From positions 1-64,000 of the forward strand of contig NZ_KB892744.1 in assembly GCF_000373925.1 (NCBI RefSeq): 64,000 nucleotides of DNA. Reading direction: 5' to 3'. Under the pieces are notes generated by a model. It was not told the origin of the DNA. It did no database searches and saw only the letters and a list, made by a program, of their open reading frames with translations. A program made the translations under genes and the position numbers. Origin of the DNA: Actinopolymorpha alba DSM 45243. GTDB taxonomy: Bacteria; Actinomycetota; Actinomycetes; Propionibacteriales; Actinopolymorphaceae. Of this stretch, positions 37,192 through 45,486 are shown piece by piece (the stretch's first letter is position 1; the number at the start of each line of letters is the position of its first letter).

Positions 37192-38088
37192 TCATCCTTT
37201 GACGGCACCTTTGGCGGCTTCCATGATCTGGCGTTGCAGGATGAGGAAGAAGACGATGATCGGGATGACGGAGATGACGGTCCCGGCGCTCATCAGCCGC
37301 AGGTCGACCCCACCGATGCCCTTGAGGTAGGCGACGCCCAGCGACACCGGGTAGAGGTTCTGGTCGCTCAACACCACCAGTGGCCAGAGGAAGTCGTTCC
37401 AGACGTTGATGAACCCGAAGATCGCCACGATCGCCAGGGTGGGACGCGTCACCGGGAGCATGACGTGCCAGAAGACCCGCCACTCGTTGCACCCGTCGAT
37501 GCGGGCGGCGTCGGCGAGCTCCCTCGGCACCGAGGTGAACGCCTGCCGCAGCAGGAAGATCGCGAACACCGTGAGGAGATTGGGCAGCACCACACCCGCA
37601 TAGGTGTTCACCAGACCGAGCTGGTTGACGATCAGGTACTGCGGGATCAGCATCACCTCCATCGGCAGGAACATGGCGGCGACCAGCCCGAAGAAGATCA
37701 GCGTCCGCCCCCGGAATCTCATCGTGGCCAGGGGGTACGCCGTCAGGGCGCTGATCACCACGTTGGCCGGGACGATCAACACGATCAACAGGAACGAGTT
37801 CAGCAGGTACCGCGGGAACTCGATGGTCGTCCAGGCCCGGACGAAGGCGTCGACGATCGGGGGCCGGGGAATCAGGTCCGGCGGGTTGCTGAACACGTCC
37901 TGGTGCCCGGGTTTCAACGCTGTCGACAGCAGGACGACGAACGGGAGGACGAACACGACGCCGATCGCCACCAGCAACAGGTACAACCCGATGCGACGGA
38001 TGACGCGACTCGCCGGGAGCCGGGTACGGTTGTTGGTCGGAACGGCCTGCGCCGTCTCCACGGGGCCGGTCCCCACGCTGGCGGCCAT
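37192..38088 (-). CDS. carbohydrate ABC transporter permease (MalG-like)
   Basis: Protein of 298 residues from the ATG at 38088, overlapping the previous permease stop by one base. Six membrane helices; the cytoplasmic EAA loop reads ELADAARIDGCNEWRVFWHV MLPVTRP, as in CUT1 MalG-type permeases. It forms the channel with the permease upstream and receives sugar from the binding protein at 39093. No ATPase is encoded here, so a shared MsiK-type ATPase elsewhere is likely, as in many actinomycetes. Confidence 0.92.
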   Translation of the reverse strand: MAASVGTGPVETAQAVPTNNRTRLPASRVIRRIGLYLLLVAIGVVFVLPFVVLLSTALKPGHQDVFSNPPDLIPRPPIVDAFVRAWTTIEFPRYLLNSFLLIVLIVPANVVISALTAYPLATMRFRGRTLIFFGLVAAMFLPMEVMLIPQYLIVNQLGLVNTYAGVVLPNLLTVFAIFLLRQAFTSVPRELADAARIDGCNEWRVFWHVMLPVTRPTLAIVAIFGFINVWNDFLWPLVVLSDQNLYPVSLGVAYLKGIGGVDLRLMSAGTVISVIPIIVFFLILQRQIMEAAKGAVKG

Positions 38089-39017
38089 CAGTCCTCCGCC
38101 TTCTTCCCGAGACGGTAGTTGAAGGTCGACAGCACGACCAGGAAGAGCGCCATCACCAGGGCCGCGGCACTCGCGTACCCCATCCGGTGTCCCTCGAAGG
38201 CCTGTTGGTAGATGAAGTACCCGAGCGATGCGGTCCGGTTGCCCGGCCCACCATCGGTCAGCATGTAAACCGAGGTGAAGATCTGCATCGCCCCCATCAT
38301 CTCGAGCGTCAGCGCGACCGCCATGAACGGCCGGATCAGGGGCAGCGTCACGTGCCGCAGCCGGCCCCATGCGCCTGCACCGTCGACGGTGGCGGCCTCG
38401 TACAGGTCGCTCGGGATGGACTGGAGTCCGGCCAGGAAGATCATCATGTACGTGCCGGTCCCCTTCCAACCCTCGACGAAGATCAACGCACCCTGGGCGG
38501 TGTCGTGGTTCGTGAGGAAGTGGATGGGTTCGTCGATCAGGCCGATGGTCCGCAGCACACCGTTGATCACGCCCAGGTCGTCGTACACGAAGTTCCAGGC
38601 GACCGCGATCGCCACCATGGACGTGACCACCGGAAGGAAGTAGATCGTCCGGAAGAAGTGGATCGCCCGCATCTTCCGGTTGACCAGGATCGCCAGCAGC
38701 AGGGGCAACACGACCGTGAACGGGATCATGCCGACGAGGTACACCAGCGAGTTGCGGAAGGTCTCCCAGAACTCACTGCTGGAGAGCAGGCGTTCGAAGT
38801 TGGCCAGACCGATGAATTCCGGTGGATCGATGATGTCGTACTTGTAGAACGCCAACTGGACCGCCGAGCTCGCCGGCCACACGACGAACACGGCGAAGAG
38901 GAGCATCCCGGGAATGAGGAACAGGTACGGCGTCACCCACCGCTGCCCGATCGGCCGTTCGATGGGCCCCAGCCGAAGCCGGGATCGTCGGCTCGGGGCC
39001 GAGGATTGTGTCGTCAC
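38088..39017 (-). CDS. carbohydrate ABC transporter permease (MalF-like)
   Basis: Protein of 309 residues with a GTG start at 39017 (AGGA six bases upstream); the frame is open further upstream. Six membrane helices, with the EAA loop DLYEAATVDGAGAWGRLRHV TLPLIRP near residue 205. Partner of the MalG-like permease. Substrate is not readable, but context (xylanase, esterase, SIS and kinase genes) points to plant or amino-sugar oligosaccharides. Confidence 0.92.
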   Translation of the reverse strand: MTTQSSAPSRRSRLRLGPIERPIGQRWVTPYLFLIPGMLLFAVFVVWPASSAVQLAFYKYDIIDPPEFIGLANFERLLSSSEFWETFRNSLVYLVGMIPFTVVLPLLLAILVNRKMRAIHFFRTIYFLPVVTSMVAIAVAWNFVYDDLGVINGVLRTIGLIDEPIHFLTNHDTAQGALIFVEGWKGTGTYMMIFLAGLQSIPSDLYEAATVDGAGAWGRLRHVTLPLIRPFMAVALTLEMMGAMQIFTSVYMLTDGGPGNRTASLGYFIYQQAFEGHRMGYASAAALVMALFLVVLSTFNYRLGKKAED

Positions 39018-39092
39018 GATGCATCCTGGTCTCTCGCTGGTGGCCACTGAGGCTGCCCTCGACCTCACCGTTGGAGGTCGAGGGCTGGGGGC

Positions 39093-40457
39093 TCAGCCGG
39101 CCAGGATGGTGTCCCACTTCTTGGCCAGGTCCGCGAGCGCCGCCGTGGCGTCCGCCTTACCACCCAGGTAGGCCTTCATCCCCTCGTTGAACACCTTGGT
39201 CAGCTCGGAGTCGTGCTTGGTGCCGTACGACACGTAGGTGGTGTCGGGCAGCTCGGTGGCGATCATCTCCTTGGCCTTGTCGTCCAGCGGGCTCCCGGTC
39301 TTCTCCTTGAAGAACGGGTCCGCGATGGCCTTGAGCGACGACGGGTAGATCGGCACCAGCTTGCAGAAGTCGACCTGGTTCTTGGCGTTGGTGACAAACT
39401 GGATGAAGGCCGCCGCTGCTGCGGGGTTCTTCGACCCGGACGGTACGACGAGCGTCTGCATCCCGTCGAGCAGGAAGTTTCCCTGCGAGGTCGTCGGTGC
39501 CGGGGCCAGTTCGAGGTCGGCGTACGCCTTCGGTGCGTTCTTCTTCAGGAACGCCAGGATGTACGGAGTGCTGATCGTGAAACCGATCTGGCCCGAGTCG
39601 ATCCACTGCGGTGGGACGTTGGCCGACGACGTCGACCCCGGAGCGAGACCCTTCTTCACGTAGGTGTCCTTGTAGCGCTGGATGATCGCGGCGGCCTCCG
39701 GTGTGCTGAAGGCGGCGGACTTCTTGTCGTCGGAGATCATCGTGACGCCGTGGTAGCGCATCACCGTGTCCGACGGGATCATCGTGGTCCCGTAGACATG
39801 GGTGGTGTCGTAGATCTGCTGGGCCAGCTCGAGCACCTGGGAGTAGTCCTTGGGCGACTTGGCGTAGTCGAAGCCGGTCACCTTCGCCATCACGGACTTG
39901 CGGAAGAACATGATCGGGGCGCCGCCGTGGTACCACGGGATCGCCGCCTGCTTCCCGTCGATCTTGAACGGGTTGAGCATGCCGGGCACGTAGTCCGCGA
40001 ACTGGTCCGCCGGAAGCAGGGTGCCGAGGTCCGACAACTTGCCGGCGGCTCCGGCGACCAGCTTGTTGGTGATGTTCACCGCATCCGGGACGTTCGACGA
40101 CGCCAGTGCGGCCAGGAACTTCGCGTCGATCTGATCGCCGGGCACATCGACCCAGTCGATCTTGACGCCCGGGTGCGCCGTCTCGAACTCCTTGATCATC
40201 CCGGTGATGTAGTCGGAGTACACCTCCTTGAGGTTGATCGTCCAGAACACGACCTTGCCCGTGATCACGGTCGCGGACGGCGTCGCCGCGGCGCTGGGCG
40301 ACAAGGAAGCGGAGCTGCCCTTGTTGGCCCCGGACGTACCTGGCGCGCAGGCGCTCAGGCCGAGGGCCACCGCAGCGGCACCCGCTCCGGTCAACAACCG
40401 GCGGCGATTGAGGGTGACCCGCTCGAGGTGGCCCGACGGACCTTGCGGCTGGGACAT
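39093..40457 (-). CDS. extracellular sugar-binding lipoprotein (ABC family 1)
   Basis: Protein of 454 residues from the ATG at 40457, with GGGAGG six bases upstream. The signal combines a twin-arginine (LNRRRLLTGAGAAAVALGLS) with a lipobox Cys (LSAC), so it is a Tat-exported lipoprotein. The mature part is an SBP_bac_1 fold: VVFWTINLKEVYSDYITGMI, IPWYHGGAPIMFFRKSVM, LLDGMQTLVVPSGSKNPAAA. First gene of the importer operon, 130 bases from a TGGACTAGTCCA operator and divergent from gntR. Confidence 0.92.
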   Translation of the reverse strand: MSQPQGPSGHLERVTLNRRRLLTGAGAAAVALGLSACAPGTSGANKGSSASLSPSAAATPSATVITGKVVFWTINLKEVYSDYITGMIKEFETAHPGVKIDWVDVPGDQIDAKFLAALASSNVPDAVNITNKLVAGAAGKLSDLGTLLPADQFADYVPGMLNPFKIDGKQAAIPWYHGGAPIMFFRKSVMAKVTGFDYAKSPKDYSQVLELAQQIYDTTHVYGTTMIPSDTVMRYHGVTMISDDKKSAAFSTPEAAAIIQRYKDTYVKKGLAPGSTSSANVPPQWIDSGQIGFTISTPYILAFLKKNAPKAYADLELAPAPTTSQGNFLLDGMQTLVVPSGSKNPAAAAAFIQFVTNAKNQVDFCKLVPIYPSSLKAIADPFFKEKTGSPLDDKAKEMIATELPDTTYVSYGTKHDSELTKVFNEGMKAYLGGKADATAALADLAKKWDTILAG

Positions 40458-40586: not shown

Positions 40587-40598
40587 TGGACTAGTCCA
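40587..40598. promoter_or_regulatory. GntR-type operator in the importer/gntR divergent region
   Basis: TGGACTAGTCCA, a perfect 12-bp palindrome, lies between the binding-protein gene and gntR. A degenerate half-matching copy (CTGGTCCAGTCCAA) lies at about 40832, just before gntR. Same plan as the sites at 30973 and 41817. Confidence 0.7.
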
Positions 40599-40889: not shown

Positions 40890-41690
40890 GTGGCCAACCG
40901 CAGCGAACCGTTCGACCCCACAGCGTACGGACTTCCCGCACAACTGGACGAGGACCAGCCCAAGGGCGATCAGCTGCGGGAGGCATTGGAAAGCCTGGCC
41001 GCCCACCTCGGTCCCGGCGCACCCCTGCCATCGGAACGGCAACTTGCGGACGCCTTCGGCGTCGCCCGCATGACGGTCCGCGGGGAGGTCCGCCGACTGG
41101 CTGCGGACGGCGTCATCCGGCTCCGCGCCCGCGCCGCCGCCATCGTCGCCGACCCGGCCGCGCCGCGGTACACGGTCGGCTATTCCTTCGCCCACGAGCT
41201 GGCGCGGCGCGGTAAACAGGCGGGCTCGATCGTCCAGGAGCACAACATCCTGCGAGTCACTCCCCGGCTCGCCGAACTGCTCGAGGTGCCCGCCGGGACC
41301 CGGGCGTTGCGGCTGGTCCGGGTGCGCACCGCCGACGGCCAGCCGACCGGCGTCGAGCGGCCCACGCTGTCGCTGGAACGCTTCCCCGGCCTGGAGGACG
41401 TGGACTTCGAGCACGCCTCCCTGTACGAGACGATCCGCGACCGCTGGGGGGCGGAGCCCAGCAGCGTCCAGGCCCACGTCACCGCAGTTCACCCGTCAGC
41501 GGACGACGCGGAGCTGCTCGGGATCGACGACGCGGTCCCGTGTTTGCTGGTGACGCTCGTGCAGCGGGACACGTCCGGTCAGGTGATCGAGGCCGGCCGG
41601 TCGATCTACCGGGGCGACCGTTACGACCTGGACATCAGCCGCCGCGCCACCACGCTGCCGATGCCGGCAGCGAAGACCGACCTGGCGTAG
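40890..41690 (+). CDS. GntR/HutC-family regulator with UTRA domain
   Basis: Protein of 266 residues from the GTG at 40890, with GGAGGAGG upstream. The winged helix has LGPGAPLPSERQLADAFGVA and RMTVRGEVRRLAADGVIRLR. The C-terminal UTRA effector domain has TVGYSFAHELARRGKQAGSI, PAGTRALRLVRVRTADGQPT, and ends RSIYRGDRYDLDISRR. HutC-type members bind sugar phosphates or sugars. The TGGACTAGTCCA palindromes on both sides are natural targets. It likely controls the importer operon, itself, and the SIS/kinase operon. Confidence 0.9.
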   Translation: MANRSEPFDPTAYGLPAQLDEDQPKGDQLREALESLAAHLGPGAPLPSERQLADAFGVARMTVRGEVRRLAADGVIRLRARAAAIVADPAAPRYTVGYSFAHELARRGKQAGSIVQEHNILRVTPRLAELLEVPAGTRALRLVRVRTADGQPTGVERPTLSLERFPGLEDVDFEHASLYETIRDRWGAEPSSVQAHVTAVHPSADDAELLGIDDAVPCLLVTLVQRDTSGQVIEAGRSIYRGDRYDLDISRRATTLPMPAAKTDLA

Positions 41691-41816: not shown

Positions 41817-41830
41817 TTGGACTAGTCCAA
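41817..41830. promoter_or_regulatory. GntR-type operator before the SIS operon
   Basis: TTGGACTAGTCCAA, a perfect 14-bp palindrome containing the same 12-bp core as 40587. It stands 64 bases before the remnant ATG at 41894 that once opened the downstream catabolic operon. Confidence 0.75.
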
Positions 41831-41893: not shown

Positions 41894-42110
41894 ATGACGA
41901 CACCCCTGCCCGCCCCGAGGCCGGCGGATTTCCCACCACTGGAGTTTCCGTCGTTCACCGACGTCGCCGGCCGGACGCTGGGTGGCCAGGAGATCGAGGC
42001 CGTTACCGCTGTTCGCCGACAAGGGATGGCCGCGGGATACCGGCGAGCAAACCCACCTGTTCTTCGGCGTCAACTACCGGATGACCAAGCTGCAGGCCGC
42101 CGTCAACCGC
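41894..42110 (+). pseudogene. DegT/DnrJ/EryC1-type aminotransferase, two joined pieces
   Basis: MTTPLPAPRPADFPPLEFPS FTDVAGRTLGGQEIEAV gives the N-terminus. In another frame LFADKGWPRDTGEQTHLFFG VNYRMTKLQAAV follows, which is the sugar-aminotransferase block containing GxNxRMTELQAA. The middle, including the PLP lysine region, is deleted. It was probably the first gene of the operon. Confidence 0.6.
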
Positions 42111-42290
42111 GCAGTTACTGTTCGGCAGCGATGCAACCCTGATCGATCCCGCGTCGCACTGGGCCGGTACGCCGATGCCGGCCCGAGCCCGGAATCGGCG
42201 GAACTCATCTTCTGGCGCAACGCCAGCGCGCTGTTCGGCCTGAGCGTCGAGGGCTCCGGCTACACGCATTCCAGGGAGGTATCCGCATGA
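42111..42290 (+). pseudogene. amidohydrolase C-terminal fragment
   Basis: One frame gives LFGSDATLIDPASHW (the metal-site FGSDxxxIDPA of amidohydrolase_2 proteins). A shifted frame continues LGRYADAGPSPESAELIFWR NASALFGL and ends in a TGA overlapping the SIS-protein ATG. So a second operon gene survives only as its tail, still coupled to the next gene. Confidence 0.55.
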
Positions 42291-42961
42291 CGACTCCGTC
42301 CGCGAACGCATTCTTCGCGGCTGCAACAGATGTGCTCACCACCGCGATCGCGACCCAACGCGATGTGGTCGTGGAGGCGGGCCGGCGGATCGCTGCGACG
42401 ATCGATGCCGGCGGCAAGTGGTGGGTGTTCGGCACCGGTCACTCGCATCTACTGGTGGAGGAACTGTGGGGCCGGGCCGGCGGGATGACGGATCTGCATC
42501 CCATCCTGGAACCGTCGCTGATGCTCCACGAGGGTTTGCTCAAGAGCAGCTTGCTGGAACAGCAGTCGGGGCTTGCCGAGGTATTGCTCCAGCTGTACCC
42601 CATGGCGCCGGGCGACCTGCTGTTGGCGATCTCCAATTCCGGGCGAAACGCGGTGCCGGTGGAGGTGGCGACCCTCGCTCGGGAGCGCGGCGTGCAGGTG
42701 ATCGCGCTGACCTCGCTGGCCCATTCGCGGTCGGTCACCTCTCGTGCGCCGTCCGGGAAGCGGCTGTTTGAGGTCGCCGACCTGGTGATCGACAACTGCG
42801 GCGTTCCCGGTGATGCCGTCATCGAGCACTCCCCGCACCCCGTCGGCGCGACATCAACCATCGTCGGAGCGATGCTGCTGCAGGCGTTGTCGGTGGAGGT
42901 CATCGGCGAGCTCGAACGGCGCGGCCGGCCGGCTTCGACACTGTTGAGTCTGAACGCGTGA
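42287..42961 (+). CDS. SIS-domain sugar-phosphate-binding protein
   Basis: Protein of 224 residues, ATG at 42287 with AGGGAGGT upstream. WWVFGTGHSHLLVEELWGRA, GDLLLAISNSGRNAVPVEVA and VQVIALTSLAHSRSV form a single SIS fold with the phosphosugar-binding Ser cluster (ISNSG). It resembles the COG4821 group of stand-alone SIS proteins found with amino-sugar pathways. Its stop overlaps the GTG of the next gene (GTGA). Probably an isomerase or deaminase-like step on a phosphorylated amino sugar. Confidence 0.85.
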   Translation: MTTPSANAFFAAATDVLTTAIATQRDVVVEAGRRIAATIDAGGKWWVFGTGHSHLLVEELWGRAGGMTDLHPILEPSLMLHEGLLKSSLLEQQSGLAEVLLQLYPMAPGDLLLAISNSGRNAVPVEVATLARERGVQVIALTSLAHSRSVTSRAPSGKRLFEVADLVIDNCGVPGDAVIEHSPHPVGATSTIVGAMLLQALSVEVIGELERRGRPASTLLSLNA

Positions 42962-44085
42962 GCGGGGCGGCGATGTGGACCATCACCATCGGTTCAGTGG
43001 TCGTCACCCCGTCCCGGCAGGTGCCGCTCGGGGGTTTCGTGGCCCGGGTGGGGAACAGCACCGGCATCCTGGACGATCTGGAAGCCAACCTGATCGTGCT
43101 GACCGGTGCCGACGCGCACACGATCGCCTGGGTCGCCATCGATGCGCTGGCAGTGATGCCGGAACTCCGGACGGTCGTGGTGGATGCGGTCGTCGCGCTG
43201 ACGAACTGCACCGCCGACCAGGTGGTGGTGACGGCCTCGCACACCCATTCGGCGCCGTCCGGGTGGGTGGGGCAGATCCTGCCCGCCCTGCCCGCACCCG
43301 TCGATGACGAACTGCTCGCCGACCTGGGCGCCGCGATCGCCGGCATGCCGCTTCGTTCGACCACGGTGCGGCTGGAGACCTTCAGCGCGGCGATCGATGG
43401 CGTCGGTTCGAATCGTGCCCGTCCGGACGGTCCGTTCGACCCGACCAGTGTGGCCGTGATGGCTCGCGACGACACCGGTGTCCCGGTGGCGCTGCTCTAC
43501 GATTTCGCCTGCCATCCCACGGTTCTCGGCCCGGACAGTCGGGTGATCTCGGCGGACTGGGTGGGCGCAGCCCGGCGCGCCCTGCGCCGAGGGCTGGGCG
43601 CTGATGATCTCCCGGTTGTGTTCGCCCAGGGCTGCGCCGGTGACGTCAGCACCCGGTTCTACCGACAGGGCCGCCTGCCACCCGAGGTCGACCGGCTCGG
43701 ATCGCGGGTCGCAGAGTGGCTGCTCGCTGCCGCCGGGCGCGCGGAACCCTTGGCGGGCAACGGGATCCGACTCCGGCACGACGTGATCGAGCTTCCGTCC
43801 CGATGGGCGCCCGACTCGACGGTGACGGTCCCGATCTCGTCGGTGGATATCGGCGTACGGCGCTGGCTGACCGTTCCGGGCGAGGTGGTGGCGTCCTTCG
43901 GGATCGATATCACCGCCGCCCTTCCGCGCACACGGCTGGTCAGTTGCACCGATGGGTACATCGGGTATCTGGCGGACGCGAACTGCCATGCCGACGGCAG
44001 TTACGAGGCGTCGGCGTCCCCGTTGACGCTGTCCGACACGCTCGAGGTGTTCCGCCGGGTGGAGAAGCTGGGCAGGGACCAATGA
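42958..44085 (+). CDS. neutral/alkaline-ceramidase-like metal-dependent hydrolase (single domain)
   Basis: Protein of 375 residues from a GTG overlapping the SIS stop. VVVTASHTHSAPSGWVGQIL near residue 95 is the zinc-binding THxHxxP motif of neutral ceramidases, and LLYDFACHPTVLGPDSRVIS ADWVG contains the second metal His. VFAQGCAGDVSTRF follows. It lacks a signal peptide and the C-terminal Ig-like domain of true ceramidases. In sugar operons such cytosolic homologues probably hydrolyse another amide or N-acyl sugar. The substrate is uncertain. Confidence 0.8.
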   Translation: MSGAAMWTITIGSVVVTPSRQVPLGGFVARVGNSTGILDDLEANLIVLTGADAHTIAWVAIDALAVMPELRTVVVDAVVALTNCTADQVVVTASHTHSAPSGWVGQILPALPAPVDDELLADLGAAIAGMPLRSTTVRLETFSAAIDGVGSNRARPDGPFDPTSVAVMARDDTGVPVALLYDFACHPTVLGPDSRVISADWVGAARRALRRGLGADDLPVVFAQGCAGDVSTRFYRQGRLPPEVDRLGSRVAEWLLAAAGRAEPLAGNGIRLRHDVIELPSRWAPDSTVTVPISSVDIGVRRWLTVPGEVVASFGIDITAALPRTRLVSCTDGYIGYLADANCHADGSYEASASPLTLSDTLEVFRRVEKLGRDQ

Positions 44086-44408
44086 CCCTTCCCGACAGGA
44101 CCCCCGTCCGGGTCGGCATCGTCGGCACCGACAACTCGCACAGCGACACCCCCACTTGTCTCCGGCGCCGGGATCGACACGATCGTGGACGCCGCGATGC
44201 TGGTCGAGCCCGCCACGAGGACGGCGCCGTTCCACGTGACCGAGGTGTGGCCGCACCGCGTCGACACGGCCGACATCGAACTCGACCCGACTATCTGCTC
44301 CCTGGCCTGGAACAGATCGTGACCTTGTTGCGCACCGGGGTGACACCACTGTCGGTGGCGGAACTGCGCACCCCGGTCGATGTGCTGGGCCGGATCGCCG
44401 ACCAATAG
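44082..44408 (+). pseudogene. Gfo/Idh/MocA-type oxidoreductase remnant
   Basis: MTLPDRTPVRVGIVGTDNSH SD is the N-terminal dinucleotide fold start, overlapping the previous stop (ATGA). Most of the body is missing. Bases 44150-44300 carry a different frame (GIDTIVDAAMLVEPATRTAP). The last piece, LEQIVTLLRTGVTPLSVAEL RTPVDVLGRIADQ, matches the C-terminal helix of such dehydrogenases. Only fragments remain. Confidence 0.5.
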
Positions 44409-44529
44409 CCATCGAGCCGTAGCGACGGCGCCGACCTTCCGGTGACAAGGTCGAGGTCACGGTCGATTCACTTGCCGCGACCGGAATCGGACGGTAGGAG
44501 CTACTGAGGATTGTCGAGGAACCAATCGG

Positions 44530-45486
44530 ATGGTCGAAACGATGAAGAACCCCGTCGAGTCCGACAGTCGGGCGGACGGGCACGCTGTCGTGGACGTCGG
44601 CAAATCGGCGACGAGGATCCGTCTCCAGAGCCGCGGCATCACCGTCATCGGGCCGGGCGCCGCACCGGAATTCGCCGGTGCCCCCGACTCCGGGCAACGA
44701 CTCTTCGAGGTGGTGCGGTCGACCTGGGCGGGCGCGGTCTGCACGTCGCGGATCACGCAGCTCACGATCGGAAGCACATTCCTGCCCGATGCCGTCGGCA
44801 TCGCCGATGCCGTGGGGCGCCTGGCGGACCTGTTCCCCGGCGCCCGGATCTCCGTGTTCGCCGACGGCGTACTCTGCCACGCCGCGGCGCTGGGCGGGCC
44901 GGGCAGCGTCGTCAGCGCCGGAACCGGCGTCACGGTCGTCGGCGCGGACACCGAAGACCAGTTGTACCAACGGGATTCCTGGGGTCCCGACCTCGGCGAC
45001 CGCGGCAGCGCCGCGGAGATCGGCCGGGCCGGGCTGCGGCTCGCCTGCTCCGCGATCGACGGGGTGATGGCAGCGCCCCAACTGGTGTCCGCAGCCACCC
45101 GATGGCTGGGACGCCGACTGGAGACTTCGGCTGCCATCGACCTGCTGGCCAGACCCGACCGGGTGGAGCGGCTGGCGAACTTCGCGATGACGGTCTGCGA
45201 TCTCGCCGCCGACGGTGACCGGCAGGCGCACGAACTGATCGAGCATGCGACGGCCGAGGTCGCGGTGACGTGTGCGGCGATGGCACGGCGCATCGGCGAT
45301 CCCTCAGTGGTGCTCCTCGGGAGGCTCACCGAGATCCCGGTGTACCGGGAACTCCTCGGCACCGCACTCGCCGGCGCCGGACTGCAGGAGCGGCAACCGG
45401 TTTCGGCGGTCCTCGACGTATCGCCCGATACGGTCAACCGCAGGCAGTACCAACGGTGGGCCGGACGCTCACCGCTCCCCGATTGA
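44530..45486 (+). CDS. BadF/BadG/BcrA-type sugar kinase (N-acetylglucosamine-kinase-like)
   Basis: Protein of 318 residues. The ASKHA fold shows phosphate-1 VVDVGKSATRIRL, connect and phosphate-2 region GSVVSAGTGVTVVG, and SWGPDLGDRGSAAEIGRAGL RLA, the block typical of N-acetylglucosamine kinases (WGxxLGDEGS). The first motif has VDVGKS instead of the common GDGGGT/S, a moderate deviation. ATGs at 44530 and 44542 are both possible. It likely phosphorylates the imported amino sugar before the SIS protein acts. A 120-base gap separates it from the fossil upstream. Confidence 0.82.
   Translation: MVETMKNPVESDSRADGHAVVDVGKSATRIRLQSRGITVIGPGAAPEFAGAPDSGQRLFEVVRSTWAGAVCTSRITQLTIGSTFLPDAVGIADAVGRLADLFPGARISVFADGVLCHAAALGGPGSVVSAGTGVTVVGADTEDQLYQRDSWGPDLGDRGSAAEIGRAGLRLACSAIDGVMAAPQLVSAATRWLGRRLETSAAIDLLARPDRVERLANFAMTVCDLAADGDRQAHELIEHATAEVAVTCAAMARRIGDPSVVLLGRLTEIPVYRELLGTALAGAGLQERQPVSAVLDVSPDTVNRRQYQRWAGRSPLPD

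Follow-up and report, generated by a model that had tools for sequence, protein, structure and literature searches.

The 64,000-nucleotide stretch of Actinopolymorpha alba DSM 45243 analysed here (contig NZ_KB892744.1, positions 1 to 64,000; hereafter the window) contains a locus in which the genes of a sugar ATP-binding cassette (ABC) importer on the minus strand diverge from a GntR regulator gene and the plus-strand genes behind it, which extend up to position 45486. The order on the plus strand was GntR, pieces of a DegT aminotransferase gene, pieces of an amidohydrolase gene, a SIS protein gene, a ceramidase-like hydrolase gene, pieces of a Gfo/Idh/MocA gene and a BadF kinase gene. The SIS, hydrolase and kinase genes were full-length open reading frames:

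42287..42961, plus strand: intact SIS protein of the UPF0309/PRK02947 family, NagS-like, 224 amino acids (NF002805, 247.2 bits, cut-off 135)
42958..44085, plus strand: intact ceramidase-fold hydrolase with a single catalytic domain, 375 amino acids (PF04734, 42.5 bits, cut-off 32.1)
44530..45486, plus strand: intact BadF-family sugar kinase, 318 amino acids (PF01869, 42.2 bits, cut-off 31.5)

A first-pass annotation of this DNA had called these three genes full length, and all three aligned over their length with homologues in the metagenome-assembled genome (MAG) 'Actinobacteria bacterium 69-20' (L060). The identities were 68% over 222 codons (SIS), 49% over 355 codons (hydrolase) and 46% over 297 codons (BadF). 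The three enzymes look like the working core of an amino-sugar pathway, since they occur together in unrelated bacteria beside amino-sugar genes. We consider it fairly probable that the locus is a GntR-controlled amino-sugar catabolic operon in partial decay, in which this core was retained together with the importer, the regulator and its operators. The retained genes are presumably expressed and useful to the cell. A search within a subset of the open-access literature turned up no account of the SIS/hydrolase/BadF module or of the complete operon, in agreement with the suggestion that the combination is undescribed.

The first-pass annotation had also predicted a complete operon in relatives. 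Scanning of named genomes with an alignment of the SIS protein recovered one, syntenic with the A. alba locus, in L060. Permeases and a binding protein were encoded there on the minus strand, as in A. alba, followed by genes for GntR, DegT, a first amidohydrolase (AH1, amidohydrolase-like by eye, no Pfam match), a second amidohydrolase (AH2, PF04909), an NAD epimerase, SIS, the hydrolase, MocA, an enolase-superfamily protein, BadF, a second epimerase and a DapA-like protein. Further genes of the L060 operon, in addition to those named in the first-pass annotation, left no trace at the A. alba locus. The SIS protein was more similar to its L060 counterpart (68%) than to homologues from its own order (55–64%), which includes Kribbella and Tessaracoccus, as was the hydrolase (approximately 49% versus 32–41%). 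The operon has likely spread horizontally. Among the sampled genomes of the order and class, no second complete operon was found.

The core enzymes also occurred without the accessory genes. SIS, hydrolase and BadF genes were found in this form in Tessaracoccus oleiagri (L062), Acidipropionibacterium jensenii (L061), Caldanaerobacter subterraneus (L083) and three clostridial MAGs (L084, L086, L088). The idea of a single obligatory pathway, implied by the first-pass annotation, is therefore not supported: relatives carry the core without the lost partners, which the first-pass annotation had itself named as counting against its reading. The survivors in A. alba thus form a core able to stand alone, with the dead genes as its accessories. 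The better reading is that the three-enzyme core with its importer is widespread, whereas the accessory extension is rare and was lost in A. alba. The core adjoined a GH84 gene in T. oleiagri and genes for a NagZ-type GH3 enzyme and an M20 peptidase in C. subterraneus; NanE was a neighbour at locus L034. All 15 Kribbella hydrolase loci examined had a BadF gene in the stretch of approximately 20 kb, and 7 of the 15 also encoded NanE. A second hydrolase gene in the A. alba genome (C1:71183-72193) lay behind genes resembling NagB and NagA; this gene group (C1:71183-73996; L041:9090-12356) was also present in a genome of the same family (L040). Together, NanE, GH84, NagZ-type GH3, NagA and NagB as neighbours point to amino-sugar catabolism. 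The core genes of A. jensenii (L061:5008-8493) adjoined a CRISPR-Cas cluster (Cas_CT1975, Cas1).

The decayed genes were placed by frame-by-frame alignment of the A. alba DNA with the proteins of the L060 operon:

41894..42010, plus strand: N-terminal remnant of the DegT aminotransferase (amino acids 13–38 of L060 DegT at 41933-42010, frame 2)
41994..42113, plus strand: internal DegT remnant (amino acids 221–260 of L060 DegT, frame 0, score 166)
42112..42290, plus strand: C-terminal remnant of the AH2 amidohydrolase (PF04909 in L060) in two frames, its stop overlapping the SIS start (amino acids 204–217 at 42112-42153, frame 1, score 56; amino acids 218–247 at 42153-42242, frame 0, score 96; both against the L060 protein)
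44082..44144, plus strand: N-terminal remnant of Gfo/Idh/MocA (amino acids 4–18 of L060 MocA at 44100-44144, score 72)
44149..44288, plus strand: probable internal MocA remnants, frame-shifted (translation compared with L060 MocA by eye, no separate score)
44289..44408, plus strand: C-terminal remnant of Gfo/Idh/MocA (amino acids 242–277 at 44289-44396, score 59, borderline alone)

The stronger pieces scored 72–166, above 58, the highest value that shuffled proteins gave in 540 alignments (best of three frames each). The two weakest (AH2 amino acids 204–217, 56; MocA C-terminus, 59) were at this limit, and their assignment rests on their order beside the stronger pieces. DegT, amidohydrolase and MocA had been described as surviving only as joined ends. 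They are indeed broken remnants, but the best DegT piece is internal and the pieces lie in different frames. Since the frames are shifted, these genes cannot make their proteins. Several internal deletions together with frameshifts most likely removed the accessory part, which comprised DegT, the amidohydrolase, MocA and probably further genes of the L060 operon. Remnant identity to L060 was 33–79%, with an excess of third-position changes like that in the intact genes; this resemblance indicates that the decay is recent relative to the split from L060. In the gaps of the A. alba locus, no trace of AH1, either epimerase, the enolase-superfamily gene or the DapA-like gene scored above the shuffled maximum, and it is possible that the A. 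alba lineage never had the first epimerase gene in the position between AH2 and SIS. Elsewhere in the A. alba genome, an intact DegT gene was present on contig C50 (57% identical to L060 DegT) and an intact epimerase-DapA pair on contig C41 (55–59% identity to the last two genes of the L060 operon); no close copies of AH2 or MocA were found in the genome. Next to the C41 pair (L110:10986-13210) lay a MocA gene and an ABC transporter of the oligopeptide type. At a further site (C106:46245-49488; L108:9113-12971), a hydrolase paralogue was followed by DegT and Gfo/Idh/MocA genes, which are gene types of the decayed operon.

The opposite loss was seen in a Nakamurella MAG (HJP_bin23, L059), approximately 93% identical to L060 in DNA. 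Its hydrolase gene (L059:2873-3226) had lost 561, 138 and 69 bases with the frame still open, and the first deletion was flanked on both sides by GGATCG, a microhomology. These deletions removed zinc-ligand regions; the neighbouring genes were apparently intact. The hydrolase is thus dead and MocA intact in L059, whereas in A. alba the hydrolase is intact and MocA dead. This hints at two separable sub-modules within the operon, with one example of each, both in MAG or draft assemblies.

The importer, the regulator and two candidate operators of A. alba were all preserved:

37192..38100, minus strand: intact ABC sugar permease 2, UgpE-type, start approximate (65% identical to the L060 permease over 292 amino acids)
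38088..39068, minus strand: intact ABC sugar permease 1, UgpA-type (63% identical to L060)
39093..40457, minus strand: sugar-binding lipoprotein of the importer, start approximate (PF01547; 56% identical to L060)
40587..40598, no strand: putative GntR operator upstream of the importer genes, perfect palindrome TGGACTAGTCCA
40890..41690, plus strand: intact GntR/UTRA regulator (PF00392, PF07702; 58% identical to the L060 regulator over 258 codons)
41818..41829, no strand: putative GntR operator upstream of the catabolic operon, perfect palindrome TGGACTAGTCCA

The two copies of TGGACTAGTCCA were the only ones in the whole A. alba genome of 7,983,713 bases. A 14-base form of the palindrome had three matches in the window at up to two mismatches, against 0.06 expected. 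In L060, CTGGTCTAGTCCGG and CTGGGCTAGTCCGG, read by eye, occupied equivalent positions as similar but imperfect counterparts. The palindromes are probably operators of the local GntR protein. As one copy precedes the importer genes and the other the operon, with none at any other site, we conclude that the control sites were kept.

Three gene pairs shared bases: the AH2 remnant stop and the SIS start (ATGA at 42287), SIS and hydrolase (GTGA at 42958), and hydrolase and MocA (ATGA at 44082). The claim that coupled starts were preserved around the dead genes held for these pairs, but not for BadF, whose start is uncoupled from the preceding gene. The SIS gene has a Shine-Dalgarno sequence of its own (AGGGAGG) and so need not rely on translational coupling. 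Coupling as the cause of in-frame remnants was therefore set aside, as it is not needed for SIS.

The closest characterized relative considered for the SIS protein was NagS of Streptomyces coelicolor (SCO4393; PDB 9eol), a UPF0309 member that acts as an N-acetylglucosamine 6-phosphate (GlcNAc-6P) dehydratase (PMC12680351). Mutants showed H53, R64, E94 and D179 of NagS to be essential and S91 to be important (PMC12680351). These residues are identical in the A. alba protein (H52, R63, E91, D176 and S88, respectively). The alignment ends at NagS residue 222, so that N228 of the neighbouring subunit falls outside the aligned part. The A. alba protein differs in scoring higher against the putative isomerase 3cvj (163 bits) than against NagS (112 bits), and in its place in an operon with an importer, a kinase and a hydrolase.

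The predicted model of the hydrolase (predicted local distance difference test score 85.7) superposed on the neutral ceramidase of Pseudomonas aeruginosa (2zws) with a Z score of 33.6 over 361 residues at 18% identity. The zinc ligands of neutral ceramidase are H97, H204, E411 and Y448. The corresponding positions, checked in the aligned ceramidase chain, are H95, H186, E309 and Y337 of the A. alba hydrolase and were invariant in eight sequences. According to the predicted model, the protein thus shares the catalytic-domain fold and the zinc-ligand positions of neutral ceramidases (2zws; human 4wgk). In contrast to these, it has no C-terminal domain, covering residues 1–486 of 2zws, and it and its relatives sit in sugar operons. 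It scored 20.7 bits on the ceramidase equivalog NF041649, below the cut-off of 1200. Some relatives have 30–50 additional residues near amino acid 290; an internal deletion in the A. alba gene was rejected as an explanation, as L060, the closest relative, also lacks this stretch. Genomes of the same genus contained distant hydrolases only.

The BadF protein shares PF01869 with the BadF-type GlcNAc kinases (NagK SO3507, MurK). BadF proteins matched the NagK model, but at 33.6 bits (NF046058) the A. alba protein lies far below the equivalog cut-off of 370. Judged by its sequence, it is a sugar kinase related to NagK.

Several observations weigh against an amino-sugar operon selectively reduced to its core. 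Were three of the six traced genes to survive at random, they would be exactly the core in 1 of 20 cases, and because the decay is recent, chance could account for the intact state of all three. The SIS gene of most Kribbella is not located with the hydrolase and BadF genes. One hydrolase paralogue stands beside NagA, so the hydrolase is not necessarily a plain deacetylase of GlcNAc and may cut an amide other than the N-acetyl bond. Homologues from three species outside Streptomycetaceae, 26–36% identical to NagS, were inactive or negligibly active on GlcNAc-6P (PMC12680351); the substrate of the A. alba SIS protein, by analogy, probably differs from GlcNAc-6P.

The strongest competing explanation, which we regard as unlikely though by no means negligible, is that the whole locus is dying and that SIS, hydrolase and BadF have merely not been hit yet, with no working pathway left. 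The recent decay, with remnants conserved like the intact genes, fits this explanation, and so does the coding coverage of the contig. With a simple caller, open reading frames covered 0.74 of the window and 0.47 and 0.64 of two further segments at 64–104 kb (L112 and L113), against 0.86–0.89 in genomes of the same family. The contig looks eroded, and passive survival is possible given this low coverage. Against it stands the intactness of the importer, the regulator, both operators and exactly those enzymes that form the core elsewhere, so retention is favoured, though not strongly. In the window, L112 and L113, the contig had a slightly lower GC content and no rRNA genes.

Muropeptide salvage is a serious rival of slightly lower probability, and overlaps with the amino-sugar operon proposed here as a narrower form of it. 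NagZ or GH84 would act together with the hydrolase in the role of AmiE, BadF in that of MurK and SIS in that of MurQ. The Bacillus mur operon (murQ-murR-murP-amiE-nagZ) likewise combines a glycosidase, an amidase, a phosphorylation step and a SIS enzyme, but in A. alba the roles would fall mostly to other protein families, with an ABC importer and BadF instead of a phosphotransferase system. The GH3 NagZ and M20 peptidase genes beside the core in Caldanaerobacter are in line with such a function, as is the relationship of NagS to MurQ (PMC12680351), and the enolase-superfamily gene of L060 could encode an Ala-Glu epimerase. The A. alba SIS protein, however, scored 15.5 bits on the N-acetylmuramic acid 6-phosphate etherase model of MurQ (NF003915, cut-off 168), and the Kribbella clusters contain NanE instead. 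An assembly artefact that hides a complete operon is very improbable: the genome is a draft of 127 contigs, but such artefacts do not usually produce several deletions and frameshifts so close together (within a few hundred bases), and L059, though itself a MAG, has deletions of a similar kind, one of them at the GGATCG microhomology.

If the amino-sugar operon is read as proposed, the ABC importer would take up an N-acylated amino-sugar compound and BadF would phosphorylate the hexosamine. In its NagS/MurQ-type phosphosugar pocket, the UPF0309 SIS protein would carry out an elimination or isomerisation on the hexosamine 6-phosphate, and the cytosolic ceramidase-fold zinc hydrolase would cut the N-acyl or another amide bond. 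We infer both the order of these steps and the substrate. More tentatively, Actinobacteria and Clostridia may share a new amino-sugar pathway formed by the three enzymes. In it, a fold familiar from the degradation of sphingolipids would be applied to imported sugars, and the hexosamine phosphate used by the UPF0309 protein would differ from GlcNAc-6P. The NagS study left open the role of UPF0309 proteins outside Streptomycetaceae. The partnership of SIS, BadF and hydrolase in importer operons beside NanE, NagA/NagB, GH84 and NagZ yields a short list of candidate substrates, and the eroded A. alba copy indicates which genes form the core. The partnership also suggests that many bacterial proteins labelled 'ceramidase' act on amino sugars and not on lipids.

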